A stretch of DNA of 64,000 bases from Sinomicrobium soli (GTDB lineage Bacteria; Bacteroidota; Bacteroidia; Flavobacteriales; Flavobacteriaceae), in assembly GCF_003285545.1 (NCBI RefSeq), contig NZ_QLNV01000008.1:1-64000 (forward strand). Direction: 5' to 3'. A program made the position numbers and the translations under genes. Of this stretch, positions 13,785 to 54,849 are shown one piece after another (positions within the stretch are counted from its first letter, which is position 1; every line of letters begins with the position of its first letter). Under the pieces are notes generated by a model. That model was given only the letters and a program-made list of their open reading frames with translations. It was not told where the DNA came from and made no database searches.

Positions 13785-13787
13785 CCT

Positions 13788-15298: not shown

Positions 15299-15306
15299 TA
15301 TCTTTG
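15299..15306 (+). promoter_or_regulatory. candidate -7 element TATCTTTG of pdxH
   Basis: TATCTTTG matches the Bacteroidota TANNTTTG -7 consensus and lies 28 bp before the pdxH start, a typical spacing for a short leader. No clear -33 TTG was found. Confidence 0.45.
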
Positions 15307-15334
15307 TATAAAATCTTTCCTAAACAGAGATACC

Positions 15335-15982: not shown

Positions 15983-16038
15983 TATTTTACAAATAAAAGT
16001 GTATACTTATATCGGCTAAGCCGTAAACCACAGGTCTT

Positions 16039-16524: not shown

Positions 16525-16525
16525 T

Positions 16526-31014: not shown

Positions 31015-31087
31015 CGGGGTGTGGCGCAGTTGGTAGCGTACACGCATGGGGTGCGTGTGGTCGCTGGTTCGAGTCCAGTCACCCCGA
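31015..31087 (+). tRNA. tRNA-Pro (GGG anticodon)
   Basis: This is a complete cloverleaf: the acceptor CGGGGTG/CACCCCG pairs perfectly, and the anticodon stem CACGC/GCGTG encloses ATGGGGT, giving GGG. The T arm is GCTGG/CCAGT with loop TTCGAGT, and the discriminator is A. No CCA is encoded. It stands alone with its own terminator. The sequence beyond it becomes AT-rich and carries accessory genes, so this tRNA marks one edge of an insert. Confidence 0.93.
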
Positions 31088-31091
31088 CTTG

Positions 31092-33914: not shown

Positions 33915-36900
33915 TCAAAACCCTTCTTTCACCTCCTTATTAACTGTCGACGGACTCGTTCCGAACTGTTTTTTAAAACAGGTAGAAAAGTAGTTAGGGT
34001 CGGAAAATCCGATTTTATAGGAGACGTCGTTAACGGGAAGGTTTTCCCTGACGATCAGTTCGTATGCGATGTTCAGTTTATATCTCCTGATATAAGACAT
34101 GGGAGTGAGGCCGGTTAGGGCCTTGGTTTTCCGGGTTAAGGTCGTTTTACTGCAATTCAGCTCTTCCGCCAGAACTTTAACCGAGATTTCCTGCATGCTC
34201 AGGTTGTTTTCTATAAACCCGTTAAGGGTTTCTATGAATTCCTTGTCATACGGGCTGATCGTGTTTTGTTCGTCGTCGAGCGTATCGAGGCCCTGGAATT
34301 TTTTGCGCAGTTTTTTCCTATTACTGATGATGGAATTGACCGTAGCGGTAAGAAACTCGAACTTAAAGGGTTTGGTAACATACGCATCCGCTCCGTGTTT
34401 CATTCCTTTTACCTGTTCGTCAAGCGAATTCTTTGAAGTAAGCAGAATGACCGGGATGTGTGATGTGGCCCGGGTATCCTTGATCTTGTCACATACGGTA
34501 TAGCCGTCCATTACCGGCATCTTGATATCGCTGATCACAAGATCAGGGTTTTTCCTGTAGGCCAGTTCAAACCCTTCCTTGCCGTTAAAGGCCGACAGTA
34601 CCTTAAAATGGGCAGACAGTTCCCGTACCAGGAAGGTATTCATGTCGGTATCATCCTCGATAACCAGTATGGCAGGCAGGTTGTTTCTGGTATTGGTCAC
34701 CGGGGTATTACTGTCGGTATATGACACAGAGCCTTCGGTGAGGTAGTTGTAATTGCCGTAACTCCGGGAAACGATCTCTTCCGGATTGAAGTCACTTTTT
34801 TTACAGGGGATATCCAGGTGAAATGCTGTTCCCTTTCCCGGCTCTGACGAAACCGACAGGCTTCCGCGGTGCGCATCTACCAGCCCTTTTACGATAGACA
34901 GCCCCAGTCCGGTGCCGTGCCTGTTCTCTGCATCTGACCTGGACTGGTACCGGTCGAACAGGTGTTCCAGTTCTTCTTCCGAAAGCCCTTCACCACTGTT
35001 AAAGACCGTAATTTTTAACGAGCTGTCAACATCGACAGTAAGTGTGACCTGCCCTCCTTCGGGGGTAAACTTTACGGCATTTGAAAGGAGGTTCCAAAGT
35101 ATACGTTTGAGCTTTTCCGTATCGATGTACACGGGCTTTTCGCTGTGCGACACTACGGAGAGATCAATACACTTCTGTTTGCACTTTTCGAGAAAGGAGC
35201 TGTAAATATCCTCGTTGAACCGCGTAAGGTCGGTTTTGGAGATGACGAGTTTAAGGTTGTGATCACTGTTGATCTTCCGGAAGTCCAGGAGGTCGATGAT
35301 CAGGTGGTACAGGCGGTCCGTATTTCGCTTTATAAGGTTCAGGTTTTCCCGGGTATTTCCGGAATTTGTCTCCTGTTCCATCAGTCTTTCCAGGGGGGCG
35401 GCGATCATGGTCAGCGGAGTTTTGAAATCGTGGGAGATGTTGGTGAAGAACTCCAGCTTTTTTTCGTTCAGGTCCTTCATGGCCTGGATCTTTATTTCCG
35501 ATATCTCCAGTTCCTTTTTAACCCTTGCCCTGTACATCAAAAAACGGTTAAGCACATAAATTCCCGATACGGCCAGGACGAAATAAGTGATGTAGGCCCA
35601 TGTACTTTGATACCACGGAGGCGTGATAATGATGGAGAGATTGGTAGGAGGAGAACTGCTCTTGTTGAATTTATCTACCGATTTCACCTGGAAAGTATAT
35701 TCCCCGGGGGCCATGTTGGTATATGCTATCTGCGGGATCTTGTCGAGTGTGGTCCAGCTTTCCTGCAGGCCGAGCATCCGGTATTGAAAGGTATGGTGTT
35801 TTGTCGGCGTTTCACTGTCGTTGAAAAAATGAATGGTGAATGAATTCCTTTTAAAAGGGAGTTTTAAACGGTCTGTAGTTTCGAGGGGCTGTGTTAAAAG
35901 GGAATCGCCGGCTTTTTTTATACTGGTGTTGCGAAAGGTTATATCGGAGATAAACACCCGGGAATGATCGGTGATCTCCGGCTTCTTCAGCGGGTCGAAT
36001 TCGATAAACCCCTTTACGGTTCCGAACAGTAGCTTTCCGTTTTGGAGCAAAGCGGAAGCAAAGGGGGAAAACTCATTGGCCGGTAACCCGAAGTTGCGGT
36101 CGTAGGTATCGATACCATTGTCCCTGTTCAGTCTGGACAAACCAGAAATACTCGATATCCAGAGATTTTGTTCTCCGTCTTTTTCTATCCTGAGCAGAAA
36201 ATTGGAACTGAGCCCGTTTTCATTGGTATAGGTCCGTATCGGTTTTCCCTCCCGGTTGATATGCACAAGGCCATGCCCCCTGGTGGCCAGCCACAGGGAA
36301 CCGTCAGGGTCAAAGCTAAAATCGTTCAGTTTGCTTTCCGGCCGGTAGAAACTGCGCAATACCCTGTCCTTGCTGTCGAGGTAGTAAATATCGCCGTTGT
36401 ATTCATAGGAATAAATACGGTTTTCGTATTGTCTTATTACCTGCGACTGGTAATTGAAGAGCGTATCTCCGGAAGCCCTGACTATGGGAATTTTTGAAAA
36501 ATCATGCGTTTTCAGGTCCAGTACCCCCAATCCCTTGTACATCGAATTTATGACAAGAGTATCAGGGGAAACCTGGTCTATGAAATTGATGTTCTGCCCG
36601 TTCATGATGCCTTTGGTAAAGGGGTAGAGGGTGGAAATGTGGTTTCCTTCCCCGGAGAACTGCCCCAGCCCCCCGTCGTAGGTGCCTATCCAGATATCGC
36701 CCGAGCCGGCTTCACCGATAGCCAGTATTTTCGATCCGTGCATCAACGTCATGCAATCGTTATAGCCTATTGCAAATTCTACCCGGTCCTGTCCCTTCAT
36801 TTTCAGGAATCCCATATTGGTACCCAGCCAGAGGTTCTGCTCCGAATCTTCATAGCAGGCCGTAGCATGGGTAGACAGGGGGAGCTTCCGGTCGAGTCCC

Positions 36901-37856
36901 TTGTCGCGGGTAATATTCTTAAAAAACGTTTCCCGGCTGCTCAGGTAAGCCAGTCCGGAATCGTAGGTGCCGGCCCAGAAATCCCCGTTGTTTAGCACAA
37001 GCAGATTATATATATTATTACTCTCGATAAACTCTTCATTGTTCGTATGACTGAACAGGTGGTTACCCAGGACAAAATCCCGGTTGAGTTCGAAAATCCC
37101 GTTTCCGTCGGTAGCGACCAGTACGGATGTTCCGTTCTCTTTGATATCCTTGATGGGATAGGTATTGGGAAGGTCTATTTCAGACAGTCCGTCCGGCCCG
37201 TAGCGGAATATCCTGCCACCGGGGGTGGCCGCGAGGACCTCGTTGCGGATAACTTCCAGGCAGTTTATCACCTGTCCCTGCAGGACCCTTCTGGTCTCGA
37301 CAAGCTTTCCCGGTTCCGGTTTGAAGATTCTCAGACCCAGCTGGTTTCCCAGTCCGAGGAAAAAGTGTTCCCCGTAATAGGCCATCTTTCTGAGGTTTCC
37401 CCTGAAATCAGTTTGAAAAGCGGTGGTCGTATAGTCGGGGTTCACCTTGTACAGGTGGCTGGGGGTAATGAAGTAAATGGCTCCGCCGTCAATCCCGATG
37501 ATATCCTTGACATTGCCCCCGAAAATGTTCCGGAAGGTACCCTTTACCCGGTCCAGTACATAGATGCCTTCACCCGAGCCGATCCATACCCGGTTTTTAT
37601 CATCTACCAGTATCTTGTTGATATCCTTGCCGTCAAGATCGTTGTAGTTCCTGAAATTTATTCCGTCATACCGGGTAATGCTGTTTTGGGTCCCTATCCA
37701 CAGGTAACCGTATTGGTCCTTTGCAATGGCCTTGACCTTGTTTTGGGGCAACCCATCCAGTTCCGACAGGGAGAATGAATTTTTTACGGATTGACCCCTG
37801 AGCGGCAGAAGGCCGTAAAAGAGAAAAAGAGAGCCTATGAGAAAAATTCGTTTCAT
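33915..37856 (-). CDS. hybrid two-component system regulator (HTCS)
   Basis: About 1313 residues form a one-protein signalling system. A signal peptide (MKRIFLIGSLFLF) leads, then a periplasmic two-component propeller of repeated WIGT/DGL-type blades (to about residue 640) and a Y_Y_Y domain. A membrane helix follows (YITYFVLAVSGIYVLNRF). The histidine kinase has the H-box NISHDFKTPLTMI and ATPase motifs NLLSNAVKFTPEGG and GTGLGLSIVKG. The receiver has EDD and the phosphoacceptor Asp in LVISDIKMPVMDG. It ends in an AraC-type HTH pair. Such proteins sense a freed oligosaccharide and switch on the linked locus, here the divergent SusC gene set. The start at 37856 gives the clean signal; 37886 is an upstream alternative. 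Confidence 0.95.
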   Translation of the reverse strand: MKRIFLIGSLFLFYGLLPLRGQSVKNSFSLSELDGLPQNKVKAIAKDQYGYLWIGTQNSITRYDGINFRNYNDLDGKDINKILVDDKNRVWIGSGEGIYVLDRVKGTFRNIFGGNVKDIIGIDGGAIYFITPSHLYKVNPDYTTTAFQTDFRGNLRKMAYYGEHFFLGLGNQLGLRIFKPEPGKLVETRRVLQGQVINCLEVIRNEVLAATPGGRIFRYGPDGLSEIDLPNTYPIKDIKENGTSVLVATDGNGIFELNRDFVLGNHLFSHTNNEEFIESNNIYNLLVLNNGDFWAGTYDSGLAYLSSRETFFKNITRDKGLDRKLPLSTHATACYEDSEQNLWLGTNMGFLKMKGQDRVEFAIGYNDCMTLMHGSKILAIGEAGSGDIWIGTYDGGLGQFSGEGNHISTLYPFTKGIMNGQNINFIDQVSPDTLVINSMYKGLGVLDLKTHDFSKIPIVRASGDTLFNYQSQVIRQYENRIYSYEYNGDIYYLDSKDRVLRSFYRPESKLNDFSFDPDGSLWLATRGHGLVHINREGKPIRTYTNENGLSSNFLLRIEKDGEQNLWISSISGLSRLNRDNGIDTYDRNFGLPANEFSPFASALLQNGKLLFGTVKGFIEFDPLKKPEITDHSRVFISDITFRNTSIKKAGDSLLTQPLETTDRLKLPFKRNSFTIHFFNDSETPTKHHTFQYRMLGLQESWTTLDKIPQIAYTNMAPGEYTFQVKSVDKFNKSSSPPTNLSIIITPPWYQSTWAYITYFVLAVSGIYVLNRFLMYRARVKKELEISEIKIQAMKDLNEKKLEFFTNISHDFKTPLTMIAAPLERLMEQETNSGNTRENLNLIKRNTDRLYHLIIDLLDFRKINSDHNLKLVISKTDLTRFNEDIYSSFLEKCKQKCIDLSVVSHSEKPVYIDTEKLKRILWNLLSNAVKFTPEGGQVTLTVDVDSSLKITVFNSGEGLSEEELEHLFDRYQSRSDAENRHGTGLGLSIVKGLVDAHRGSLSVSSEPGKGTAFHLDIPCKKSDFNPEEIVSRSYGNYNYLTEGSVSYTDSNTPVTNTRNNLPAILVIEDDTDMNTFLVRELSAHFKVLSAFNGKEGFELAYRKNPDLVISDIKMPVMDGYTVCDKIKDTRATSHIPVILLTSKNSLDEQVKGMKHGADAYVTKPFKFEFLTATVNSIISNRKKLRKKFQGLDTLDDEQNTISPYDKEFIETLNGFIENNLSMQEISVKVLAEELNCSKTTLTRKTKALTGLTPMSYIRRYKLNIAYELIVRENLPVNDVSYKIGFSDPNYFSTCFKKQFGTSPSTVNKEVKEGF

Positions 37857-37886
37857 AAAAACATCATTCATCCTGTCGTTTGACAT

Positions 37887-38196
37887 GATTCAGCTACTAT
37901 AGGATATTTAACATTTTTTTATTACAAAGACCCGGGGTAAACGCTGTTTATTTTGGGGATTTATTATTTATAACGCTTTTTATTTTTCATAATAAATAAA
38001 GTGTAATGCAAACATAGCGGATTTTATATTGTGATTGACGAGTAGCGCGAATATAGAGATTGATTGTCAAATTAACTTAAAAAATTGTAGATATAGATGT
38101 TTTTTTAAAGATTTTGGGGTCTATTTTAAAGGTTTTTTGCGCATCAAATAAGTTTCTTTGTCTGGTGATTAGCTAACGAACTAAACTTTAACATTT
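37887..38196. promoter_or_regulatory. divergent AT-rich control region of the utilization locus
   Basis: The 310 bases between the regulator and SusC contain no gene. The sequence is very AT-rich, with runs of T and A and repeated AATAAATA words, and probably holds both promoters and the binding site of the AraC-type domain. I could not pick out a single operator by eye. Confidence 0.5.
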
Positions 38197-41100
38197 ATGA
38201 GAATCCGGAATTGTTTATTTCATTTTCCAGTTTTACTGGCTTTTATGGTCTGTACGGGCTTATCGGGGCAGACCGTGATCAGTGGAAGCGTATTTTCTTC
38301 ACAGGACGGGGAACCTTTGCCCGGTGTCAATATTGTAATACAGGGAACCTCGGAAGGGACCGTGACCGATTTCGACGGTAAATACAGCCTCACTGTCCAT
38401 ACGGAAAATCCTGTATTGGTGTTCAGCTACGTGGGTTTTAAAAGCCAGAGTGTTGCCGCAGGGAACAAAACAGTGGTGGATGTCGGTATGGAAGAAGACC
38501 TCTCCGCACTGGATGAGGTTATAGTGGTGGGCTACGGTACCCAGAGGAGGAGAGATGTTACCGGGGCAATTTCTTCCATCAGTACAAAAGATGTGGAAGG
38601 CGTTCCCGTACGGAGCGTGGACCAGGTGCTGCAGGGCAGGGCTGCGGGAGTTTCTTTTGTACAGAGTTCGGGAATGCCCGGTGCCGGTGCTTCCATAAGG
38701 ATACGGGGAGGAAACTCCATCAACGGTAGTAACGAACCCCTTTATGTGATCGATGGTGTGCCCATTACGGTAAATATCGGTGATGCCGCTTCATTAAACC
38801 CGCTTAACAGCATTAACCCGAGCGATGTGGAATCTATTGAGATACTGAAAGATGCATCTGCCACCTCTATTTACGGTTCCCGGGGCGGGAACGGGGTAGT
38901 ATTGATTACCACCAAAAGAGGGAAATCGGGAAAAGGAAGAGTGAATGTAAATTATTATTCAGGTATCCAGAAAGAAACAAAAAGGTATAACCTGCTGAAT
39001 GCAAAGCAGTTTGAAACTTTGGCCAATGAAGCCAGTATTGCAGATGGCGGCCCCATACTGTACGACCCGGCACTCCACCCGGCAACTACCGACTGGCAGG
39101 ACGCCATGTTGCGCAATTTTGCCCCGGTACACGATGTGAATGTGTCTGCAAACGGCGGAAAGGAAGGGAGCACCTATATGGCATCGTTCGGGTATTTCAA
39201 GCAGGAAGGGATTATAAAAACTTCAGATCTCGAACGCTATTCGTTCCGCCTGAATATGGACCAGGTCATATCCGATAAGGTGAAAATAGGGAATAACCTG
39301 TCGGCCAGCTATGTGCAGACCAACAGGGCCAATAACGGTTCCCTGTTCTCCATGCTTACCCTGCCTCCCAATCTGCCGGTAAAACAGCCGGATGGCAGCT
39401 ATACACAGTTCAACAATCTCGGTATTGGCTTCAATAACCCCATAGCCCTGCTCAATGATTATAAAAACCTGACCAAGACTTTCAGGGCCATAGGCAACCT
39501 GTTTGTCAGTGTGGAGCTTATGGAAGGGTTGACGGTCAAGAGCAGCTGGGGGCTGGATTATATCAATAACAGGAACGATACGTACCTTCCGCAAACGGTA
39601 TATACCGGGGCATTGATAGGAGGGGACGGCTCCGTTTTTACGGGGAGGTCCATTACCTGGCTGAATGAGAATACCGCAAATTTCGTACGGTCTTTTCAGG
39701 ATCACAAAATAGATGTCCTTGTAGGTTTTACCCAGCAGAGTTCACGGTATGAATCCCTGGGAGCTTCGGCTACCGGTTTTTTAAACGACATCACCAATAC
39801 CAACTCTTTGGGACTGGGCGATCCCGAGGCGGCAGTACTTCCCTCGTCTTCTTCGTCGAACTGGGTGATCCACAGTTATATCGGAAGGGTGAATTACAAT
39901 TTCAGGGACCGCTACCTCCTGACATTGACCGGCAGGGTCGACGGGTCGTCGAGGTTCGGTTCGAATAACAGGTACGGTTTCTTTCCTTCTGCGGCCTTCT
40001 CCTGGAGAGCGATTGATGAAGCGTTTATAGAAAACCTCAATGTGTTCAGCGACATGAAAGTGAGAACCAGCTACGGGATCACCGGAAACCAGGAAGGGAT
40101 CGGGAATTACCCGGCGATCGACCTGTGGGGAGGGACCCAGTATGTGATCGGCGACCAGATCGTATCCGGGATTACCCCGTACCAGATGGGAAACAGGAAC
40201 CTTAAATGGGAACGTACGCAACAGCTGGACGTAGGCCTGGAACTCGGGTTTTTCAACAACGATCTCACGCTGGTCACCGACCTTTACTACAAAAAGACCA
40301 ACGATCTGCTGCTCAATGTCCAGGTGCCGGCCACTTCGGGTTTTACCGAAGGGACCAGGAATATCGGGTCGATAGAGAACCGGGGGGTGGAACTGACGGT
40401 CAATGCGACTCCTTTTCACGGCGAAAAACTGAACTGGAACAGTAGTTTTAACATTACCTTCAACAGGAATGAGATCCTCAACCTGGGCGGGGAAGAAGAG
40501 ATACTTCCTTCGTCTTCACCTACCATACTCCGCTTGGGTGAAAGCCTCGGTACCTTCTACGGGTATAAGTCGGAAGGGCTTTTTCAGAGCCTGGAAGAAG
40601 TGGTTTCTTCGGCTCAGCCTACGGCCCGGCCCGGAGATGTGCGATATGTAGATTACAATGGGGACGGGGTGATCAACGATAACGACCGGCAGATTATAGG
40701 TAATGCCCAGCCGAAATTTTTCGGGGGTTTTTCCAATACCCTGAGTTATAAAGGATGGGAGCTGACCTGCCTGCTGCAGTATTCCTACGGGAACGATCTC
40801 TATAACCTCAACCTGAGAACTCTCGAAAACCTTACCGGACTACAGAACCAGCGCACCACGGTAATGGACCGGTGGACTGCAGACAACAGGAATACGTATG
40901 TTCCCAGGGCCACGGCTACCAAACCCATGGATGTATCTTATGACCGTTATGTGGAAGATGGGTCCTATTTAAGGCTTAAGACTTTACAGCTGGGCTACAA
41001 TATCCCTTCCGGTATTATCGACCGGCTCGGGCTCAGCAATGCACGGATCTTCATCAATGCACAAAACCTGGTGACCTGGACCAACTACACCGGCCTCGAC

Positions 41101-41205
41101 CCGGAAGTCAGCAGGTATGGTTCCGACAATATCAACCAGGGCTTCGACTCCGGTGCATACCCTAATACGATGACTATCACTACCGGGGTTAATATCAATT
41201 TCTAA
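38197..41205 (+). CDS. SusC/RagA family TonB-linked outer membrane transporter
   Basis: This 1002-residue outer membrane protein has a signal peptide (MRIRNCLFHFPVLLAFMVCTGLSGQ). A carboxypeptidase-regulatory-like domain covers residues 25-105 (ISGSVFSSQDGEPLPGVNIV), followed by the SusC signature ALDEVIVVGYGTQRRRDVTGAI. The plug (VPVRSVDQVLQGRAAGVSFVQ to VLITTKRGKSGKGRV) precedes a 22-strand barrel ending in aromatic TTGVNINF. With SusD it takes up oligosaccharides using TonB energy. It is the first gene of the locus, and the SusD gene follows 13 bp later. Confidence 0.97.
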   Translation: MRIRNCLFHFPVLLAFMVCTGLSGQTVISGSVFSSQDGEPLPGVNIVIQGTSEGTVTDFDGKYSLTVHTENPVLVFSYVGFKSQSVAAGNKTVVDVGMEEDLSALDEVIVVGYGTQRRRDVTGAISSISTKDVEGVPVRSVDQVLQGRAAGVSFVQSSGMPGAGASIRIRGGNSINGSNEPLYVIDGVPITVNIGDAASLNPLNSINPSDVESIEILKDASATSIYGSRGGNGVVLITTKRGKSGKGRVNVNYYSGIQKETKRYNLLNAKQFETLANEASIADGGPILYDPALHPATTDWQDAMLRNFAPVHDVNVSANGGKEGSTYMASFGYFKQEGIIKTSDLERYSFRLNMDQVISDKVKIGNNLSASYVQTNRANNGSLFSMLTLPPNLPVKQPDGSYTQFNNLGIGFNNPIALLNDYKNLTKTFRAIGNLFVSVELMEGLTVKSSWGLDYINNRNDTYLPQTVYTGALIGGDGSVFTGRSITWLNENTANFVRSFQDHKIDVLVGFTQQSSRYESLGASATGFLNDITNTNSLGLGDPEAAVLPSSSSSNWVIHSYIGRVNYNFRDRYLLTLTGRVDGSSRFGSNNRYGFFPSAAFSWRAIDEAFIENLNVFSDMKVRTSYGITGNQEGIGNYPAIDLWGGTQYVIGDQIVSGITPYQMGNRNLKWERTQQLDVGLELGFFNNDLTLVTDLYYKKTNDLLLNVQVPATSGFTEGTRNIGSIENRGVELTVNATPFHGEKLNWNSSFNITFNRNEILNLGGEEEILPSSSPTILRLGESLGTFYGYKSEGLFQSLEEVVSSAQPTARPGDVRYVDYNGDGVINDNDRQIIGNAQPKFFGGFSNTLSYKGWELTCLLQYSYGNDLYNLNLRTLENLTGLQNQRTTVMDRWTADNRNTYVPRATATKPMDVSYDRYVEDGSYLRLKTLQLGYNIPSGIIDRLGLSNARIFINAQNLVTWTNYTGLDPEVSRYGSDNINQGFDSGAYPNTMTITTGVNINF

Positions 41206-41218
41206 TACCAAGAGAATT

Positions 41219-42676
41219 ATGAAAAAAATACTGTTTACCGTTCTTGTCATAGTCTTGTACGGTTGTTCCAAACTGGATATAGAACCGGATGGGGTAAATA
41301 CTTCCGACAACCTGTTTAAATCGGCCAAAGATGCCCAGGCCACGGTAAATGCCATATATGCGGCCCTGCAGACCCACGATGTGTACAACCAGTTCATGGA
41401 AGTAGTCCAGTCGCAGGGAACCGATGATGCCGAATGGGGATACGGGCGCAATACCAGCAACGGGGATAAACTGCAGATGGATAAATTCCAGTTCGACGCT
41501 TCCTCCGGCCTGGTCTACCGATTCTGGGAAAACCATTACAAGAATATCAACCGGGCCAATATAGTCATTAAGAACATTCCCGGAATGGAGCTCGATGAGG
41601 AGGTTAAAAACCGCTTTCTGGGGGAAGCCCGTTTTCTCCGTGCCCTGATGTATTTCAACATGGTAAGGCTGTTCGGAAAAGTTCCCCTGCTCACTTCGCC
41701 TACCGAGGTGCTTGAAAACCTGGATGTGGCAAGGTCGGAAGTCGAAGAGGTCTACGACCAGATAGAAGCCGATCTGCAGTTCGGAAAAGAACACCTGCCT
41801 TCCCAGTACAGCCCTTCCGACTACGGGAGGCCTACCCGGGGAGCAGCAATGTCCCTGCTCGCAAAAGTATACCTGACCCGGAAAGATTATCAGAAAGCAG
41901 CGGCGGAGGCCCGGAGCGTTATGGACCTTAAAATATACAGCCTGTGGCCTGAGTATGAAGAGGTGTTCGACATTGCCAATGAGAATACCGGGGAGTCTAT
42001 TTTTGAGATACAGTTTACCAATACCCAGGGAACGAGTTCTACCGTGAGTTCATCCTACCAGGGGTTTTTCAAACCTCCTTCCAGTGTCTTGCCTCCCGGT
42101 CCGGAAGGCTTTGCCGGGTACGGGGATAATCCCGTTACCGAAAACCATTACCTGTCTTATGCTCCGGGAGATAAAAGAAGGGAAGTTAACGTATTGTACA
42201 TCCCCACGGCACCTTCCTCAATTCAGTATCCCTACTACGTGAATAAATACCACGACCCCAATGCCATCACGGTGGAAGATGGCGGGAATAACTACTACAT
42301 CCTGCGATATGCCGATATCCTCCTGATGTATGCCGAAGCAGAGAATGAACTGAGTGCGGGAAGTCCGCAGGCCTATGAAGCATTTAACCAGGTAAGGCGG
42401 CGGGCCTTCGGTTACCCGGTACAGGCACCGTCTCCGGCCGATCTGACGACAGGGCTGAGCCAGGAACAGTTCAGGGATAGCATCATGCTGGAACGGAGAC
42501 ATGAATTTGCCTTTGAAGGACAAAGGCGTTTTGACCTGCTCAGGTGGGGAAAACTGCTGGAAGCCATGAATGCCCAGGACCCTACCATAGATATACAGGA
42601 CAGGTATGTATTATTTCCTATCCCGACAGATGAACTTCTGCTCAACGACCTGCTCGACCAGAACGAAGGGTACTAA
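41219..42676 (+). CDS. RagB/SusD family surface glycan-binding lipoprotein
   Basis: A 485-residue lipoprotein with signal and lipobox VLYGC (Cys16) followed by SKLDIEP. TPR-like helical repeats form the scaffold (ARFLRALMYFNMVRLFGKVPLL; RGAAMSLLAKVYLTRKDYQKAAAEA). The C-terminal RagB block is EAYEAFNQVRRRA and FAFEGQRRFDLLRWGK, close to the usual SusD end. It caps the SusC transporter and binds the substrate glycan outside the cell. Translation is probably linked to SusC. Confidence 0.97.
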   Translation: MKKILFTVLVIVLYGCSKLDIEPDGVNTSDNLFKSAKDAQATVNAIYAALQTHDVYNQFMEVVQSQGTDDAEWGYGRNTSNGDKLQMDKFQFDASSGLVYRFWENHYKNINRANIVIKNIPGMELDEEVKNRFLGEARFLRALMYFNMVRLFGKVPLLTSPTEVLENLDVARSEVEEVYDQIEADLQFGKEHLPSQYSPSDYGRPTRGAAMSLLAKVYLTRKDYQKAAAEARSVMDLKIYSLWPEYEEVFDIANENTGESIFEIQFTNTQGTSSTVSSSYQGFFKPPSSVLPPGPEGFAGYGDNPVTENHYLSYAPGDKRREVNVLYIPTAPSSIQYPYYVNKYHDPNAITVEDGGNNYYILRYADILLMYAEAENELSAGSPQAYEAFNQVRRRAFGYPVQAPSPADLTTGLSQEQFRDSIMLERRHEFAFEGQRRFDLLRWGKLLEAMNAQDPTIDIQDRYVLFPIPTDELLLNDLLDQNEGY

Positions 42677-42705
42677 TATTCACAAACCGACTAAAACGAA
42701 TTCAA

Positions 42706-43941: not shown

Positions 43942-43990
43942 TGGTATGATGACATGGAAAGACCATTTATTAACTCGTAACCCGAATAGT

Positions 43991-45373: not shown

Positions 45374-45496
45374 GACCTATGGCTGACTTTGGCCTGCCCG
45401 GGGATTTCGGGATATGAGCAAAAGGGATTTAAGAACATTTCGAAACGTAAGAGAACTCATTTGGTGAGTAAAGTGTAACCATAAAACAGGATAACA

Positions 45497-47125: not shown

Positions 47126-47201
47126 GGCAGGACGGGGGAGAAATTTTGAAAGTTGAATTATAAATGTGGAACAACATAACTCTGATTTTAAGACCGATCA
47201 A

Positions 47202-48569
47202 ATGGAAAATATGATAAAGAAAATTATAAATCCGGTGCTGGTCATCGCATGTCTTTCGGTAATCCCGGCTTTCCTTGCGTGTGAGAATGACGATCCGCAG
47301 GTAACATATGAATTGCCGGAAGAGGAATATCCCACTGAAGGGCCGGTCAAGGCCGAAATAATCTATGAAGGAGAGGTGCCCAGACTGTACAGGAACGGAA
47401 AACCGTATTATGTAAAGGGAGCAGCTTATAATAATTTTATGGACCTGGTCCCGGAATACGGGGGAAACTCTATCAGGACCTATAGTGTGGATGAAAATAC
47501 CCAGGCTGTGCTGGACAGTGCACTGGCCAATAAACTCACCGTATGCCTCGGGATCTGGGTAAACCGGGAAACGGACGGGTTTGATTACGATAACGCACAG
47601 GAGGTAGCGGAACAGAAAGAACGCGTACGGGAGGAGGTCCTGCGGTTTAAGGACCATCCGGCAGTGCTGATGTGGGGTATCGGGAATGAAGTAGATGCAC
47701 AGTATACCGATTATAAGGTATGGAATGCCATCGGGGATATTTCCGATATGATCCATGAACTGGATACCAACCATCTGACCACTACCGTACTTGCGGGGGC
47801 GGACCCGAAAGATATTGAGGAGATCATGGAGAGGGCGCCGTCGCTGGATATCCTGGGGGTCAATTCCTACAGTGCCATCGGTAATGTACAGAAAAATACG
47901 GCTTCCGCAGGCTGGACCAAACCCTATATGATTACCGAATGGGGCCCGAAGGGAACCTGGGAAAATGTTTCAAAGACCTCGTGGGGAGGCATACAGGAAC
48001 TCAGCAGTACCGAAAAGGGAGAAGTATACAAGAATACTTATACCAGCCATATTGCAGCAAATTTCAACAGGGGATGTGTAGGTTCCTATGCCTTTTTATG
48101 GGGATACCAGCTCCACGGGGCGGTTGCTACCTGGTATGGTGTTTTTACCCCTAAAAAGAAGCCGCTTGAAACTGCTCATGCCCTGTACTACTCATGGAGC
48201 GGGTCCTATCCGTCGAACAGGGCCCCGAGAATTGAGAATTCGGGAGATATCCTATTGAACGGTCGGACAGCAGATGAAAGTATTGTGGTAAAGGCAGGGG
48301 AAGACAACTTTACCCATGTGAGGGCCGTAGACCTCGAGGGGGACGAACTGACCTATGAATGGCAGATCGTACGTGAAGGGTTTGTGGTCAGTGATGACCA
48401 GGAGTTTGAGGGTTCCCTGCCGGGACTGGAGGGACTGTTTGAGGATAACAGTAAGAGAAATGCCCGGTTTGTAATGCAAGGTGAAGGCACGTACAGGCTG
48501 TATGCTTTTGTATATGACTCCGAGGGCAACGTAGCCAGTGCAGTCATCCCCTTTAAAGTGGAAAAATAA
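47202..48569 (+). CDS. GH-A clan TIM-barrel glycosidase lipoprotein (second copy)
   Basis: A 455-residue lipoprotein, paralogue of the gene at 43991. The lipobox is FLAC (Cys27), the acid/base Glu163 is in LMWGIGNEVD, and the nucleophile Glu246 is in MITEWGPKG. The barrel-flanking phrases RNGKPYYVKGAAY, CLGIWVNRETDGFDYD and the C-terminal Ig-like domain (VRAVDLEGDELTYEWQI) are shared. The two copies differ most in loop regions, so they may cut different linkages or chain positions. ATG 47202 or 47211 may be the start. The GH3 gene begins 10 bp after its stop. Confidence 0.78.
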   Translation: MENMIKKIINPVLVIACLSVIPAFLACENDDPQVTYELPEEEYPTEGPVKAEIIYEGEVPRLYRNGKPYYVKGAAYNNFMDLVPEYGGNSIRTYSVDENTQAVLDSALANKLTVCLGIWVNRETDGFDYDNAQEVAEQKERVREEVLRFKDHPAVLMWGIGNEVDAQYTDYKVWNAIGDISDMIHELDTNHLTTTVLAGADPKDIEEIMERAPSLDILGVNSYSAIGNVQKNTASAGWTKPYMITEWGPKGTWENVSKTSWGGIQELSSTEKGEVYKNTYTSHIAANFNRGCVGSYAFLWGYQLHGAVATWYGVFTPKKKPLETAHALYYSWSGSYPSNRAPRIENSGDILLNGRTADESIVVKAGEDNFTHVRAVDLEGDELTYEWQIVREGFVVSDDQEFEGSLPGLEGLFEDNSKRNARFVMQGEGTYRLYAFVYDSEGNVASAVIPFKVEK

Positions 48570-48579
48570 TATTCTGTTT

Positions 48580-50913
48580 ATGAAGAATACTTTTAGAACA
48601 GGGCGCCCCGGAATTCTCATGGTCGCTGTAATCATGAACTTTACCGGTTACTTCTCCGTATACGGGCAGGGAGAACCGGGATACCTGGATCCGGGACTTC
48701 CGGTAGCGGAAAGGGTCGAAGATCTTCTGGAGCGGATGACACTGGAAGAAAAAGTAGGGCAGATGAGCCAGTATGTAGGGCTTTTTCACCTTGAAAAATC
48801 GGCAGATCTCGATACCCCGATCGACCTGATGGCGGATGATGCCAATGCCTTTTATCCCGGGTTGAGCGGCAAGGGGCTTTACGACCTGATCGGGAAAGGA
48901 AAGATCGGGTCATTTTTGCATGTACTATCTGCAAAAGAAGCCAACCAGTTGCAGAAAGCAGCGCGGCAGACCAGGCTCCGGATACCGTTGCTTATCGGTA
49001 TAGATGCCATTCATGGCAATGCCCTTTACGAAGGTGCCACGGTATACCCGACGCCTTTGTCTATGGCCTCTGCCTGGGATACCGGCCTCGTACGTGAAAT
49101 AGCCCGGCAGACCGCCCGCGAAATGCGGGCCACGGGAACGCATTGGGCCTTCTCCCCGAATATAGATGTTGCCAGGGACCCCAGGTGGGGCAGGGTCGGG
49201 GAAACCTTCGGGGAAGACCCTTACCTGGTAAGTGCCCTCGGGGTAGCCATGGTAGAAGGTTTGCAGGGAGATGATTTCGGGCAGCCGGGTAATGTACTGG
49301 CCTGTATCAAGCATTTTGTGGCAGGAAGCGAACCCGTAAACGGTTTGAATGCCTCCCCGATGGACGTAAGTGAAAGGACATTGAGGGAGGTGTACTTTCC
49401 CCCGTATCGGAAGGCAATCGAAGCCGGGGCGTTTACGGCCATGGCCGCCCATAACGAGATCAACGGAGATCCCTGCCACGGTAGCAGATACCTTCTGACC
49501 GATATCCTGCGCAAGGAGTTTGGTTTTGACGGTTTTGTAGTCAGCGACTGGATGGATATAGAAAGACTGAAGACCGTGCACAGGGTGGTGGAAAATCAGA
49601 AGGAAGCCTGTTTCCGCGCTGTTGATGCCGGAATGGACATGCATATGCACGGTCCTGATTTCCTGGAACCGGTGGTGGAACTCGTACAGGAAAACCGTCT
49701 GGCAGAGGAAAGAATAGATGCAGCAGTCCGCAAGATACTGGAAGCCAAATTCAGGCTCGGCCTTTTCGAAAACCCCTTTGTTGATGAAGCGGAGGTCCCT
49801 CACCTTATCCGTACGGCCGGGCACCAGGCTACAGCGCTGGAAGCCGCACGGAAATCCATCGTCCTGCTGAAAAACGAAGGAGTACTTCCCCTTAACCCCG
49901 ATAACGTTAAAAACATCCTGGTTACCGGCCCTAATGCCGGTAACCATACCATTCTCGGGGACTGGACTTTTGAGCAACCTTCCGGGAATATTACCACGGT
50001 GGCAGAAGGCTTTAAGGCCATAGCCCCGCCGGGTGTAAAACTGGATTATTACGATATGGGCAAGCAGGTCACCGAAGTTACCGGGGCCCATATCGAAGAA
50101 GCGGTGCGCCGCAGCAGGGAGGCCGATGTGGTAGTAGCAGTGGTAGGCAGTAATTCCCTGAGGTATGAAAGCAGGTTCAAGACCAACGGCGAAAATGTGG
50201 CCCGGGACAACCTGGACCTTGTAGGGATGCAGCAGCAACTCATAGAAGCACTTTACCATACCGGGAAACCTGTAGTGGTGGTGCTGGTGAACGGCAGGCC
50301 CCTCGGGGTGGAGTGGATCGCAAACCATATCCCGGCGGTTATAGAAGCCTGGGAACCCGGGAGTGCGGGCGGACAGGCCATAGCCGAAATTATCTTCGGA
50401 GAGGTCAACCCCAGCGGAAAACTCCCCATAACCATCCCCCGTAATGTAGGGCAGGTGCCTTCGTATTACAATCATAAAAACGCGCATTATGTGAAGAAGT
50501 ACAAGTGGTCGGAAACAGGGCCGCTCTACCCGTTTGGTTTCGGCCTGAGCTATACCGGGTTTGAATACTCCGACCCGGTGCTCTCCGCAGAGAAAATAAA
50601 AGCCGGGGAAAAGGTCACGGTAAGGGTAAGCGTATCAAACACCGGGGAGCGTACCGGGGAGGAGGTCGTACAGCTTTATGTACGTGATCTTTACAGTTCG
50701 GTGACACGGCCTTTAAAAGAGTTAAAAGGATTTAAACGGATCAGGCTTGAACCGGGGGAGCGTAAAGAGGTCGTTTTCGAACTGGACGAGGAGGCTTTTT
50801 CCTTTTACAATATGGATATGGAGCGTATCGTGGAACCGGGCGCATTCTTTATCATGACCGGAAGTTCCTCGGCAAACGAAGACCTGAAAACAGCCGAACT
50901 TGTGGTGGAATGA
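48580..50913 (+). CDS. GH3 family beta-glucosidase-like enzyme
   Basis: This 777-residue exported enzyme has a signal MKNTFRTGRPGILMVAVIMNF...YGQ. The N-terminal TIM barrel contains the ERMTLEEKVGQM start and KHFVAGSEP. The nucleophile Asp323 is in GFVVSDWMD, the GH3 consensus. An alpha/beta sandwich holds a likely acid/base Glu in the NGENVARDNLDL loop (about residue 540). A C-terminal FnIII-like domain (VSNTGERTGEEVVQLYV) completes the common three-domain form. It removes terminal beta-linked glucose or xylose from oligosaccharides, and the rest of the locus points to beta-glucans. Translation is tightly linked to the GH-A gene upstream. Confidence 0.93.
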   Translation: MKNTFRTGRPGILMVAVIMNFTGYFSVYGQGEPGYLDPGLPVAERVEDLLERMTLEEKVGQMSQYVGLFHLEKSADLDTPIDLMADDANAFYPGLSGKGLYDLIGKGKIGSFLHVLSAKEANQLQKAARQTRLRIPLLIGIDAIHGNALYEGATVYPTPLSMASAWDTGLVREIARQTAREMRATGTHWAFSPNIDVARDPRWGRVGETFGEDPYLVSALGVAMVEGLQGDDFGQPGNVLACIKHFVAGSEPVNGLNASPMDVSERTLREVYFPPYRKAIEAGAFTAMAAHNEINGDPCHGSRYLLTDILRKEFGFDGFVVSDWMDIERLKTVHRVVENQKEACFRAVDAGMDMHMHGPDFLEPVVELVQENRLAEERIDAAVRKILEAKFRLGLFENPFVDEAEVPHLIRTAGHQATALEAARKSIVLLKNEGVLPLNPDNVKNILVTGPNAGNHTILGDWTFEQPSGNITTVAEGFKAIAPPGVKLDYYDMGKQVTEVTGAHIEEAVRRSREADVVVAVVGSNSLRYESRFKTNGENVARDNLDLVGMQQQLIEALYHTGKPVVVVLVNGRPLGVEWIANHIPAVIEAWEPGSAGGQAIAEIIFGEVNPSGKLPITIPRNVGQVPSYYNHKNAHYVKKYKWSETGPLYPFGFGLSYTGFEYSDPVLSAEKIKAGEKVTVRVSVSNTGERTGEEVVQLYVRDLYSSVTRPLKELKGFKRIRLEPGERKEVVFELDEEAFSFYNMDMERIVEPGAFFIMTGSSSANEDLKTAELVVE

Positions 50914-51030
50914 GGTGGTTGGAAGCGCGAAGCTCAAAGACGGGGAGACAGGGAGTTTTTTAATTTTGGAAACCTGTAACCTGCAACCCAAACCCCCTGC
51001 ATCAAACCAATTATATTAAATTTACTCGTA

Positions 51031-53025
51031 ATGAAAACAAAATTCTATATACTCCTCTTTGTTATCAGTATCGCGACAGGCTGTACCCGTGAAAAGCAGG
51101 CGGAACCATCTTATGACCTGGTCGTATACGGAAGTACCTCCGCCGGGATTATCGCCGCGTATACGGCTAAGATGAAAGGGCTGGAAGTGCTGCTGGTTTC
51201 TCCCGATAATCACCTGGGCGGACTTACCACGGGGGGACTCGGTTATACGGATATCGGGAATAAATACGCGATTACCGGGCTTGCCCGTGATTTTTACAGG
51301 CGTATCGGTGCCGAGTACGGTGTTTTCGAGCGGTGGATATTCGAGCCGCATACCGCATCCGGGGTCTTTAATGATTACCTGGAAAAAGCGGATGTTCCCG
51401 TGCTGTACGGATATCAACTGGAAAAGGTAGAAAAGGAAGGGGCTTCCATAAGCGCCGTACTGCTCAGAAAGGGAAACAGTGAAAAGTCTGTCGGGGCCGG
51501 TGTTTTTATCGATGCTACCTATGAAGGCGACCTGATGGCCGGGGCCGGGGTTTCCTATACGATAGGGCGGGAAAGTAATGAAACCTACGGAGAAACCTAT
51601 AATGGGGTACAGTTGAGAAAACGGCACCAGTTCCCTGATCTTATAGACCCGTACAAGATTAAAGGAGACCCTTCCAGCGGCCTGCTCTGGGGCATCAGCC
51701 CGGAAAAAGTAGCATCAGATGGTACGGGCGATCAGAAACTGCAGGCCTATAACTTCAGGATATGCCTTACAAACGATAAGGGAAACCAGGTGCCGGTTAC
51801 GGAACCCGAAGATTATGATGCCTCGCGTTACGAATTATTACTCCGGCTATTCGAAGCCCAGCCCGATAAGCGCAAACTCAACGATTATTTTATCTGGAGT
51901 AAAATGCCGGGCGGTAAGACCGATATCAATAACCGGGGAGGATTTTCCACCGATATGATCGGGATGAATTACGATTATCCCGAAGCCTCGTATGAAGAGC
52001 GGGAGGACATTGTCAGGGCCCATGAAAATTATACCAAAGGGCTATTGTATTTCTATAAGACCGATCCCCGCGTTCCGGAAGAACTGCGTATGGAGATGCA
52101 GGAGTGGGGATATCCGAAAGATGAATATACGGATAATGGCAACTGGTCTCCCCAGCTTTATGTACGCGAAGTAAGGCGGATGGTCGGGCAGACCGTAATG
52201 ACACAGCATCATTGCGTGGGGGAGCAGGTGGTAAACGATCCGGTAGCGCTGGCCGCCTATACGATGGATTCGCATAACTGTCAGCGGATAGTGGTCGAGA
52301 AAGAAGGTGTGCCCATGGTAAAGAATGAAGGCAATGTGGAGATCGGGGGATTCGGACCTTACCCGATCGGATATGGCGCTATTGTACCTAAAGAAGAGGA
52401 ATGTGATAACCTATTGGTCCCCGTGTGTTTATCGGCAAGTCATATTGCTTATGGTTCTATCCGTATGGAACCCGTGTTTATGGCTCTCGGACAGGTTGCG
52501 GCCCTGGCCGCCGCAGAGGTTGTGAACGGGAAAACAACAGTACAGTCGGTAGATTATAGGAATATCCGGAAGGAGTTGCAGGCAGACCCGCTTTCCGATG
52601 GTTCGCAACCCGAGATCCTGGTCGATAACACAGACGAAAATGTAACTGTCGAGGGCGACTGGAAAACAGTCTCCGGAAACTGCTATGGACAGAATGCCCT
52701 GGAGATCGGAGGTAAAGGTAAAGTGACATTCAGTCCGCTGCTCCGGTATACGGGCACTTATGAAGTATTTGTGTATTTTAGTAAAATAAAAGGTATAGCC
52801 CCCGGGACCACGGTGGAAATTCATGCCGGCAGTACCCCGCAGCAGTATACCATTGTGGCAGATGACGTAGAGATCACCGGTCAGACCTCGGGCGAATGGA
52901 TATCGGCAGGAACTTTTAGCCTGGAAAAGGAACAACCTTTTGAGGTTACCATTTACGGGAATGTAAAGGGAAAGGTACGGGCCGATGCCGTTTTACTGGT
53001 ACCTCAAAAAGACATTGCACCATGA
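51031..53025 (+). CDS. secreted FAD-dependent oxidoreductase with golvesin-like C-terminal domain
   Basis: A 664-residue lipoprotein (Cys18 in IATGC) built like the first flavoenzyme over residues 25-530: YDLVVYGSTSAGIIAAYTAKMKGLEVLLV, LGGLTTGGLGYTD, FIDATYEGDLMAGAGV, YGSIRMEPVFMALGQVAALAAAE. It carries an extra beta-rich domain at about 535-660 (WKTVSGNCYGQNALEIGG to ADAVLLVPQ), typical of golvesin/xanthan-lyase-type accessory domains. It presumably oxidises a glycan or oligosaccharide at the cell surface, with the extra domain for binding. Its stop overlaps a 25-codon mini-ORF ahead of the cstA-like gene. Confidence 0.8.
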   Translation: MKTKFYILLFVISIATGCTREKQAEPSYDLVVYGSTSAGIIAAYTAKMKGLEVLLVSPDNHLGGLTTGGLGYTDIGNKYAITGLARDFYRRIGAEYGVFERWIFEPHTASGVFNDYLEKADVPVLYGYQLEKVEKEGASISAVLLRKGNSEKSVGAGVFIDATYEGDLMAGAGVSYTIGRESNETYGETYNGVQLRKRHQFPDLIDPYKIKGDPSSGLLWGISPEKVASDGTGDQKLQAYNFRICLTNDKGNQVPVTEPEDYDASRYELLLRLFEAQPDKRKLNDYFIWSKMPGGKTDINNRGGFSTDMIGMNYDYPEASYEEREDIVRAHENYTKGLLYFYKTDPRVPEELRMEMQEWGYPKDEYTDNGNWSPQLYVREVRRMVGQTVMTQHHCVGEQVVNDPVALAAYTMDSHNCQRIVVEKEGVPMVKNEGNVEIGGFGPYPIGYGAIVPKEEECDNLLVPVCLSASHIAYGSIRMEPVFMALGQVAALAAAEVVNGKTTVQSVDYRNIRKELQADPLSDGSQPEILVDNTDENVTVEGDWKTVSGNCYGQNALEIGGKGKVTFSPLLRYTGTYEVFVYFSKIKGIAPGTTVEIHAGSTPQQYTIVADDVEITGQTSGEWISAGTFSLEKEQPFEVTIYGNVKGKVRADAVLLVPQKDIAP

Positions 53026-53099
53026 GTATAAAACTTCTTTTATTTTTTCCGGTGATCACCTCCGGTTTTTTTGAATCAAAAGACTTGATGATATGGTAA
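53022..53099 (+). CDS. 25-codon coupled mini-ORF before the CstA-type gene
   Basis: ATG 53022 overlaps the TGA of the flavoenzyme gene as ATGA, and the TAA at 53097-53099 lies inside the first codons of the CstA-type gene (ATG 53093). The encoded peptide reads MSIKLLLFFPVITSGFF-ESKDLMIW: hydrophobic, then a short polar end. Overlap at both ends suggests it could be translated to carry ribosomes into cstA, or make a small membrane peptide. Chance cannot be excluded. Confidence 0.35.
   Translation: MSIKLLLFFPVITSGFFESKDLMIW
53049..53072 (+). terminator. weak terminator-like hairpin in the leader of the CstA-type gene
   Basis: CCGG at 53049-53052 pairs with CCGG at 53062-53065 around a loop containing GGTGATCACC, followed by seven T. 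The stem is short, so partial read-through is expected, which would lower expression of the transporter relative to the enzymes. Confidence 0.4.
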
Positions 53100-54550
53100 C
53101 CCTTTGTATTTCAATAGGTATTCTGACGGCAGGTTACTGGATTTACGGCAAGGTCCTGGAAAAGGTTTTCGGGGCAGACCCGGAACGGCCTACACCTGCA
53201 GTATATAAAGCAGACGGGGTAGACTTTGTAGAAATGCCCTTGTGGAAGATCTTCCTGATACAATTTCTCAATATTGCGGGGCTCGGCCCCATTTTCGGGG
53301 CAGTAGCCGGCGCCCTCTGGGGGCCGGTCGCCTTTTTATGGATCGTACTGGGCAGCCTTTTTGCCGGAGGGGTGCACGATTATTTCTGTGGCATGATGTC
53401 GGTGCGCCATAACGGGGAAAGCGTGTCGGAAGTTTCCGGGTATTACCTCGGAAACTGGATCAAACAGTTTATGCGTGGCTTTACCGTATTGTTGATGGTT
53501 ATAGTAGGTGCGGTTTTCCTGCTCGGGCCCGCAAAGATACTGGCCGGGATGACCGAAGGGACTATAGGCCTTTTCGGATGGACCATGATTATCCTGGTAT
53601 ACTATATCCTTTCTACGATCTTACCTATCGACAAGATTATCGGCAGGTTTTATCCTGTGTTCGGGTTTGCCCTGGTATTTATGTCTTTGGGGCTTTTTGC
53701 CGCTATGATACTGAAAGGGATGGATGTTCCCGAACTGGGCCTGTCCAGTTTTACGAACTCTCATTATAAACCGGACGATTTCCCCGTGTTCCCCATGCTT
53801 TTTGTCACTATTGCCTGTGGGGCCGTTTCCGGGTTTCACGCCACGCAATCGCCCATGATGGCAAGGTGTATAACCAATGAAAAACAGGGGAAGAAGGTCT
53901 TTTTCGGGGCCATGCTGACCGAGGGAGTGGTGGCCCTGATATGGGCAGCCATCAGTATGAGTTTTTTCGGGGGAGTAAAGGAACTGAATATGGAAATGCT
54001 TCAGAACGGAGACAATACCGCATTGGTCGTGAACCAGATCTCCAACGGTGCCCTGGGCGTTCTCGGAGGGCTACTGGCTGTCCTGGGAGTGGTGGCTGCT
54101 CCGATTACTTCGGGAGATACGTCATTCAGAAGCGCCAGGATCATTATTGCGGATGTGTTGAAAACAGATCAGAAATCCGTTAAGAACCGATTGCTGATCA
54201 GTATTCCCCTTTTCCTGGCCGGTTACCTGCTTACGCTCGTTAATTTCGGGGTGATATGGAGGTATTTTGCATGGACCAACCAGATGCTGGCCACTATAGT
54301 GCTGTGGACGGTTACCGTATATCTTATACGCCAGGGGAAGAACTACTGGATAGCCCTTGTTCCTTCGGTGTTCATGACTGCGGTGGTAACAGCCTATATT
54401 TTACTGGCCCCGGAAGGCTTTTCCCTCCCGGTAGACCTGTCGGTTACTTCAGGTATTATAACGGCCTTTGCCGTGATGGCAGTGGTACTATTCAGGGTAC
54501 AGGGAATCCGCAGGGAGAAATTCAAACCGGAAGAATACGTAAAACCTTGA
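53093..54550 (+). CDS. carbon starvation CstA-family transporter
   Basis: A 485-residue inner-membrane protein with about 13 membrane helices and the CstA hallmark sequences FLNIAGLGPIFGAVAGALWGP near residue 60, GGVHDYFCGMMSVRHNGES, PMMARCITNEKQGK and APITSGDTSFRSARIIIAD. CstA-family carriers import peptides or pyruvate in E. coli. Here the gene ends the glycan locus, so it may move an oxidised sugar or small acid product inward (inference). The DUF466 partner (YbdD) common in other CstA operons is absent. Its start overlaps the mini-ORF. Confidence 0.93.
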   Translation: MVTLCISIGILTAGYWIYGKVLEKVFGADPERPTPAVYKADGVDFVEMPLWKIFLIQFLNIAGLGPIFGAVAGALWGPVAFLWIVLGSLFAGGVHDYFCGMMSVRHNGESVSEVSGYYLGNWIKQFMRGFTVLLMVIVGAVFLLGPAKILAGMTEGTIGLFGWTMIILVYYILSTILPIDKIIGRFYPVFGFALVFMSLGLFAAMILKGMDVPELGLSSFTNSHYKPDDFPVFPMLFVTIACGAVSGFHATQSPMMARCITNEKQGKKVFFGAMLTEGVVALIWAAISMSFFGGVKELNMEMLQNGDNTALVVNQISNGALGVLGGLLAVLGVVAAPITSGDTSFRSARIIIADVLKTDQKSVKNRLLISIPLFLAGYLLTLVNFGVIWRYFAWTNQMLATIVLWTVTVYLIRQGKNYWIALVPSVFMTAVVTAYILLAPEGFSLPVDLSVTSGIITAFAVMAVVLFRVQGIRREKFKPEEYVKP

Positions 54551-54588
54551 GGCGTAAATATTGTTATGTAAAGTTCCCGTACCGTTTT

Positions 54589-54849
54589 TTATTTCTTGCC
54601 GTATTTTATCATCAGGTACATCATAAAACTATTCAATACCAGGGAAACCCCATTGGTTAAAATAACCGGAAAATCATTTTGAATGATGCCGTACAACACC
54701 CAAAGCGATAATCCGGTTATCAGGATAATGAACATCAGGGGGGATACATTATCCACTTTTTTTTGCTTCCAGGATTTTCTTATTTGCGGGATTACCGCAA
54801 TTGTCGTGCAAAACCCTGCCAGTAACCCCAGAATGACGATATAGTTCAA
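54589..54849 (-). CDS. SemiSWEET family sugar transporter
   Basis: This 86-residue protein has three membrane helices, the half-transporter form of SWEET. The PQ-loop motif is AVIPQIRKSWKQKKVDNVSPLMF (residues 19-41), followed by LSLWVLYGI and the late LTNGVSLVLNSFMMYL. SemiSWEETs dimerise to carry mono- or disaccharides down their gradient. The gene converges with the CstA-type gene, 38 bp apart, at the end of the glycan locus. It may exit or share sugars freed by the locus, or serve an unrelated neighbour. It is probably co-transcribed after the SDR gene. Confidence 0.88.
   Translation of the reverse strand: MNYIVILGLLAGFCTTIAVIPQIRKSWKQKKVDNVSPLMFIILITGLSLWVLYGIIQNDFPVILTNGVSLVLNSFMMYLMIKYGKK

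Follow-up and report, generated by a model that had tools for sequence, protein, structure and literature searches.

Glycan loci of the Sus type are normally understood through their hydrolases and lyases. The closest described system is the beta-1,3-glucan utilisation locus (1,3GUL) of Bacteroides uniformis ATCC 8492 (BACUNI_01484-01490), whose printed gene list comprises a hybrid two-component regulator (HTCS), SusC, SusD, the surface glycan-binding protein (SGBP) SGBP-B, and glycoside hydrolases (GH) of families GH16_3, GH158 and GH3 (PMC7157763). As defined there, a 1,3GUL has a TonB-dependent transporter (TBDT), SGBP-A (SusD) and GH3 in synteny with GH16 and/or GH158 (PMC7157763). In this work, we describe a locus of Sinomicrobium soli at positions 33915 to 54849 of the window, the 64,000-nucleotide stretch that was analysed (contig NZ_QLNV01000008.1, positions 1 to 64,000). 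It is a variant of the known kind of 1,3GUL and SusCD polysaccharide utilisation locus (PUL), and carries in addition two flavoenzyme genes (FAD1 and FAD2) and the gene for a short CstA-type carrier. Our preferred, if tentative, reading is that a beta-1,3-glucan-type utilisation locus has been joined to an FAD-CstA module, in which the flavoenzymes would oxidise an imported sugar and CstA would take the product.

The source genome (label G000) measures 4.6 Mb, and the locus lies on its contig C42. A divergent HTCS gene stands opposite nine + strand genes (SusC, SusD, SGBP-like, GH158a, FAD1, GH158b, GH3, FAD2 and CstA), with intergenic distances of -32 to +123 bases, short gaps as in a single operon. 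A preliminary description of this DNA had listed the genes from HTCS to SemiSWEET, and each was found in its place, the families resting on Pfam and NCBIfam or on PDB sequence matches and the SGBP-like label on position:

33915..37886, - strand: HTCS hybrid two-component regulator, divergent, with a periplasmic propeller (Pfam Reg_prop, Y_Y_Y, HisKA, HATPase_c, Response_reg and AraC-type HTH, HTH_18)
38197..41205, + strand: SusC TonB-linked transporter (TIGR04056, 961 bits against a cut-off of 368)
41219..42676, + strand: SusD-like protein (PF07980 1.2e-35, PF14322 1.3e-28)
42706..43941, + strand: SGBP-like protein, named by position, with no Pfam or NCBIfam family above cut-off
43946..45373, + strand: GH158a, putative endo-beta-1,3-glucanase lipoprotein (9oro 2e-64, 6pal 5e-46; catalytic NE and E motifs retained)
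45497..47125, + strand: FAD1, exported PF12831 flavoenzyme without lipobox (1.5e-103; clade A of the FAD tree; signal peptide read by eye)
47166..48569, + strand: GH158b, putative endo-beta-1,3-glucanase lipoprotein (9oro 8e-73, 6pal 2e-54; catalytic NE and E motifs retained)
48538..50913, + strand: GH3 exo-glycosidase, predicted periplasmic by its signal peptide (PF00933, PF01915, Fn3-like)
51031..53025, + strand: FAD2, predicted lipoprotein flavoenzyme with a lipobox and a C-terminal Golvesin_C domain (PF12831 1.4e-110, PF25275 7.5e-14; clade G of the FAD tree)
53093..54550, + strand: short CstA-type inner-membrane carrier (PF02554 5.4e-60)
54589..54849, - strand: SemiSWEET/PQ-loop gene converging on the operon (PF04193 8e-13; PF03083, MtN3_slv, 5.6e-11)

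Neighbouring SusC and SusD homologues, a regulator and carbohydrate-active enzymes place the locus among SusCD-type PULs. The SemiSWEET gene, which approaches on the opposite strand from outside, probably does not belong to the system.

The two proteins first described as GH-A lipoproteins are present and lipoprotein-like, and PDB matches and catalytic residues now refine them to GH158. Pfam gave weak matches alone (GH2 TIM barrel); GH158a and GH158b match both GH158 sequences in the PDB (9oro, 6pal) across most of each protein. The catalytic residues of BuGH158 are N136, E137 and E220 (PMC7157763), and in the alignments the Asn-Glu pair and the further catalytic Glu are retained at these positions in both proteins, which belong to GH158 by family-wide similarity as well. 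Because both lipoproteins are GH158 with retained catalytic residues, the backbone is, as judged from sequence, a 1,3GUL-type locus with TBDT, SusD, GH3 and GH158 in synteny. It resembles the B. uniformis locus in holding HTCS, SusC, SusD, a putative SGBP, GH158 and GH3 together. Unlike that locus, it has a second GH158 and no GH16, and FAD1, FAD2 and CstA are additions absent from the printed gene list. The earlier claim of a Sus-type glycan locus is thus borne out, and the gene set and GH158 residues point to the beta-1,3-glucan type. As for GH3, its best NCBIfam model is an exo-beta-1,3/1,6-glucosidase at 650 bits, under the cut-off of 1330, and its nearest solved sequence carries the name beta-xylosidase.

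The cluster of GH158 with flavoenzymes recurs. A genome scan, with one genome per species, gave 588 confirmed relatives among the matches listed, of which the best 80 were kept as named loci. Their genes were labelled by an open reading frame (ORF) caller and by phmmer comparison with the proteins of the window and of the loci, with Pfam confirmation where stated; loci ending at contig ends include L080, L113, L117, L133, L151 and L212-L214. GH158 lies beside FAD1 in 4 of these 80 loci, three of which also carry FAD2, the fourth (L117) ending at a contig end:

L113, Marinoscillum metagenome-assembled genome (MAG): FAD1-GH158-GH158-GH3-FAD2-GH3-CstA, contig end
L114, Bacteroides acidifaciens DSM 15896: SusC-SusD-FAD1-GH158-SGBP-GH3-FAD2-GH3
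L117, Bacteroidales MAG: SusC-SusD-FAD1-GH158-SGBP, contig end
L118, Bacteroidales SIG150: SusC-SusD-FAD1-GH158 (two ORFs)-SGBP-FAD2-GH3

A search for the same gene order elsewhere, suggested at the outset, therefore finds the combination again, in an order that differs between Sinomicrobium and L113. The recurrence also agrees with the view that the flavoenzymes, which look exported, belong to the locus. FAD1 of the four loci is 50-81% identical to Sinomicrobium FAD1 (best segments), and in a 79-row FAD tree these proteins group with it (SH-aLRT 86) within an 8-row clade (100). Golvesin-type FAD2 forms a 13-row clade (100), and the FAD2 proteins of GH158 loci fall in a 6-row clade (99) that also holds two FAD2 proteins of loci with sulfatases (L139, L140). 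Homologues of the SGBP-like protein, 21-30% identical, adjoin GH158 in L114, L117 and L118; its predicted structure is beta-rich where the model is confident and of low confidence towards the C-terminus (mean pLDDT 71, pTM 0.36). Within the class, a second family, presumably Bacteroidaceae, has matches to B. acidifaciens FAD1 at 1e-60 in 14 of 301 genomes. Surroundings were examined for 11 of the 15 such places and none has GH158 in the stretch, so the exact combination appears to be rare.

One could also suppose that an ordinary 1,3GUL received the flavoenzymes and CstA by chance, without joint function. The stretches examined of L114 and L118 are without CstA, which is therefore not required with GH158; the order of genes is unlike between Sinomicrobium and L113; and the best-scoring SusC and SusD among the compared loci (L092, 969 and 437 bits) sit beside FAD2 without GH158. 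Yet five genomes keep FAD1 together with GH158, four of them with FAD2 as well, despite the FAD1 divergence given above, and the pairing of CstA with FAD genes is found in two CstA clades. We regard a chance insertion as very unlikely.

Both flavoenzymes match PF12831 (FAD_oxidored) over their full length, FAD2 ending in Golvesin_C, and they are 46% identical to each other in the alignment. Sixty columns are invariant in an alignment of 30 FAD sequences, as would be expected of enzymes with conserved chemistry. Of the five full-length PF12831 matches in the genome, two lie in this locus. Within this family the two proteins are without a close solved structure by sequence or fold: PDB sequence searches gave E 0.019 or worse for FAD1, mostly across the FAD-binding motif, and 0.081 or worse for FAD2, and Foldseek with the predicted FAD2 structure (pLDDT 89, pTM 0.87) returned superfamily-level neighbours only (50 rows shown, TM at most 0.26 by query and 0.45 by target). 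These neighbours are urocanate reductase, fumarate reductase/flavocytochrome c, ketosteroid dehydrogenase and Thi4; xanthan lyase 6f2p is also listed, across 288 columns. Oxidases of the glucose-methanol-choline (GMC) type (AA3) were ruled out by the lack of a PF00732 match in FAD1 and FAD2, and the two GMC matches of the genome sit on other contigs. In our tentative reading, both enzymes would oxidise sugars.

The nearest folds (urocanate reductase, flavocytochrome c, ketosteroid dehydrogenases) could also suit enzymes that act on a non-sugar part of the glycan or as reductases, so that an aromatic, lipid or unsaturated group would be reduced or desaturated before uptake by CstA. CstA members are known as carriers of pyruvate and peptides rather than of sugars, and the enzymes flanking FAD genes differ by locus (sulfatases, SASA esterases, GH20, GH2, GH16). 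On the other hand, the Foldseek agreement is at superfamily level, Pfam recognised no heme or flavin mononucleotide (FMN) domain of the sort such reductases use, and SusCD loci mostly serve glycans. All considered, we think this account unlikely.

Flavoenzymes and CstA also occur together without GH158. In L097 (G165:C3:637000-656900), positions 5467-17842 read SusC-SusD-FAD-FAD-FAD-CstA, after which the next locus begins with its sigma and FecR genes; the run has no glycosidase, lyase or sulfatase, and its FADs and CstA were confirmed by Pfam. L162 of Siphonobacter sp. BAB-5405 (3103-11617) reads SusC-SusD-FAD2-FAD, with no hydrolase in the same-strand run. The FADs are thus the sole enzymes encoded in the same-strand runs of L097 and L162. 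L122 (Pseudozobellia), L133 and L136 (two Maribacter) combine SusC-SusD and one or two FADs with sulfatases and CstA, and L123 (Sunxiuqinia) reads FAD-FAD-CstA-PF06439. In a comparison of 57 FAD loci, with clades taken from the 79-row tree, 12 are sulfatase-labelled: 7 with FADs of at least two clades (L080, L122, L133, L134, L139, L140, L143) and 5 with FADs of a single clade (L073, L083, L086, L136, L159). Elsewhere the FADs are accompanied by SASA esterases, GH20, GH2, or GH16 with the carbohydrate-binding module CBM6. Because the surrounding hydrolases vary between loci, the FADs are not bound to a single glycan. In L095 (G309:C1, 4436-10623), a golvesin-type FAD2 adjoins a large GH16 that is secreted and carries CBM6 and CBM35, a possible link to beta-1,3-glucan.

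NAD in GH4 and GH109 works by transient oxidation, elimination and hydride return. By analogy, the FADs might be redox-neutral bond-breakers in place of glycosidases: the flavin would oxidise a ring hydroxyl (e.g. at C3), the bond would be eliminated, water would add and the hydride would be returned. The same-strand SusCD-FAD runs of L097, L151 and L162 hold no glycosidase (CstA being present in all but L162), and neither do the sulfatase-containing runs of L122, L133 and L136. The gene order of L123 would also suit, as would an L223 FAD near a 3-keto-disaccharide hydrolase and two Gfo/Idh/MocA genes. Moreover, no electron acceptor gene was recognised in the operon, and FADs are found in B. 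acidifaciens and other Bacteroidales, known as anaerobes. Nevertheless, we know of no flavin enzyme of this kind, and the GH158 and GH3 of the locus are able to cut beta-glucan unaided. Gfo/Idh/MocA or PF06439 labels occur in just 6 of the 57 loci (L081, L123, L140, L154, L166, L189), and also in L223 and L226; this association is a hint only. We find such bond-breaking quite improbable. Its wider form, in which paired exported PF12831 proteins would be a new carbohydrate-active flavoenzyme class, SusCD-FAD-FAD-CstA a complete glycosidase-free system with its product entering through CstA, and the Sinomicrobium locus its hybrid with a beta-1,3-glucan locus, has in our view a slim chance.

L223 (G929:C1:1628500-1648400, 2470-10640) encodes, on one strand, two Gfo/Idh/MocA-like proteins, a PF06439 protein and a PF12831-like flavoenzyme. 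A described pathway with related parts is that of 3-ketoglycosides, with a LacABC dehydrogenase and a PF06439 hydrolase (PMC9007349). The likeness would lie in a periplasmic oxidation before sugar bond cleavage; the dehydrogenase families differ, and the Sinomicrobium operon has no PF06439 gene, hence no cluster of such a hydrolase with a sugar 3-dehydrogenase. There are 10 PF06439 matches in the genome, the nearest of which (a 3-keto-disaccharide hydrolase, followed by a Gfo/Idh/MocA-like oxidoreductase) lies about 16 kb beyond the locus (G000:C42:70217-72487, with the PF06439 match at 70370; L216:10218-12487).

The carrier had been linked tentatively to the flavoenzymes from the start, and CstA does recur beside FAD genes across loci and in two CstA clades. 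It shares PF02554 with the CstA pyruvate/proton symporter (NCBIfam PRK15015), but is shorter (485 amino acids against a 701-position model) and far under the equivalog cut-off (92 bits against 1188). Given the pyruvate and peptides carried by known members, a keto or acid product would fit it. Six of the 80 loci have CstA near FADs (L113, L122, L123, L133, L136, L151). Searches with CstA as query, in overlapping draws of 296 phylum and 395 class genomes, gave matches at 1e-60 in 7 and 14 genomes, respectively, Sinomicrobium's own counted; surroundings are available for 16 of the 18 places (not G621 and G450). An FAD gene stands beside CstA in four of the five places at 600 bits or more (the Sinomicrobium locus, L201, L202 and L203, with PF12831 confirmed by Pfam in the last three) and in none of the 11 below, some of which end at contig ends (one-sided Fisher 0.003, the 600-bit cut-off having been set after the data were seen). 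The fifth, L204 (G000:C39:338061-339425), is the source genome's second short CstA, 60% identical, flanked by a sulfatase gene on one side and an HTCS gene on the other, with no FAD gene in the 20-kb stretch examined. In a 24-row CstA tree, very long branches split L080/L097 from all others, and CstA proteins with a neighbouring FAD occur on either side of the split; within the main part, those next to a FAD, along with L204, make up one side of a branch with moderate support (76/80). Between the FAD and CstA genes, L201 (8052-9131, 359 amino acids) and L202 (10888-12006, 372 amino acids) each encode a protein without Pfam family.

The preliminary description had the flavoenzymes oxidise the chain and the glycosidases cut it afterwards. 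Signal sequences, read partly by eye, weakly disfavour this order. GH158a, GH158b and the SGBP-like protein have lipoprotein-like, acid-rich starts, to which the Bacteroidota surface-sorting rule was applied, and they look like proteins acting at the surface, as has been proposed for the 1,3GUL. FAD1 and GH3 have plain signal peptides and look soluble and periplasmic. The lipoprotein start of FAD2 is not acid-rich here and varies among relatives. A script matched the lipoprotein starts of GH158a, FAD2 and GH158b (the last at another cysteine than the one favoured) and missed those of SusD and the SGBP-like protein, which were read by eye; relatives are mixed. Because the GH158s look like surface lipoproteins and FAD1 and GH3 look soluble and periplasmic, the flavoenzymes more probably do their work in the periplasm once the glycan has been cut and imported, rather than beforehand, although the evidence is weak.

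From the observed gene content, families, GH158 catalytic residues, and recurrence of the cluster and of the FAD-CstA pairing, we infer localisation, redox direction, substrate, product and CstA cargo as follows. SusD and the SGBP-like protein would bind a beta-1,3-glucan-containing glycan at the surface, where the two GH158 lipoproteins would cut it, and SusC would import the fragments. Periplasmic GH3 would trim these, and the two different PF12831 flavoenzymes would oxidise a sugar or sugar end beyond the reach of hydrolysis alone, probably in two successive steps. A small oxidised product, probably a keto or acid compound, would then enter the cell via CstA.

Several observations weigh against this route. 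CstA is missing from the L114 and L118 stretches noted above, golvesin-type FAD2 also occurs in loci without GH158 (L090-L095, L139, L140, L162), and the fold neighbours of FAD2 include no sugar oxidases and some reductases. Pfam recognised no electron-transfer partner among the operon proteins, the SGBP-like protein being without family. In Maribacter forsetii, an 'FAD-dependent oxidoreductase' is placed beside a SusC/D pair, with an alkaline phosphatase and a phosphonatase-like hydrolase (PMC11345257). That gene was expressed in two of three glucose samples, with no expression reported on laminarin (PMC11345257).

As for the surroundings, GC content runs from 0.48 to 0.53 in the genes of the locus, compared with 0.48 in the left flank and 0.43 in the right, which does not support a foreign origin from base composition. 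Five same-genus genomes gave no GH158b match above 34 bits, so the locus appears patchy within the genus. Scans for promoters (26 sites, where shuffled sequence gave 20.4, sd 4.0) and terminators (21, where it gave 19.1, sd 3.7) were uninformative, and an Rfam scan of 30000-60000 found a single tRNA and no RNA family inside the locus. This tRNA-Pro (ggg), at window positions 31015-31088, lies about 3 kb off the locus edge, in a GC-poor stretch (4-kb bin down to 0.39), and is a possible insertion point of the locus.

A search of the open-licence full-text literature found no description of the combination of FAD, CstA and GH158 or of the FAD-CstA module, in line with the initial statement that no such locus had been described; within that literature, the module appears undescribed. 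The nearest printed case there is the Maribacter forsetii gene described above, and one text places an FAD oxidoreductase near a GH3 gene (PMC6987092). The recurrence of SusCD with at least two different flavoenzymes and CstA suggests that Bacteroidota, a Bacteroides isolate included, have an oxidative branch of periplasmic glycan use. Named isolates with such loci are B. acidifaciens DSM 15896, Siphonobacter sp. BAB-5405 and Maribacter aquimaris. With such a module, CstA-type carriers would gain a new role, and a further family of carbohydrate-active enzymes might be established.

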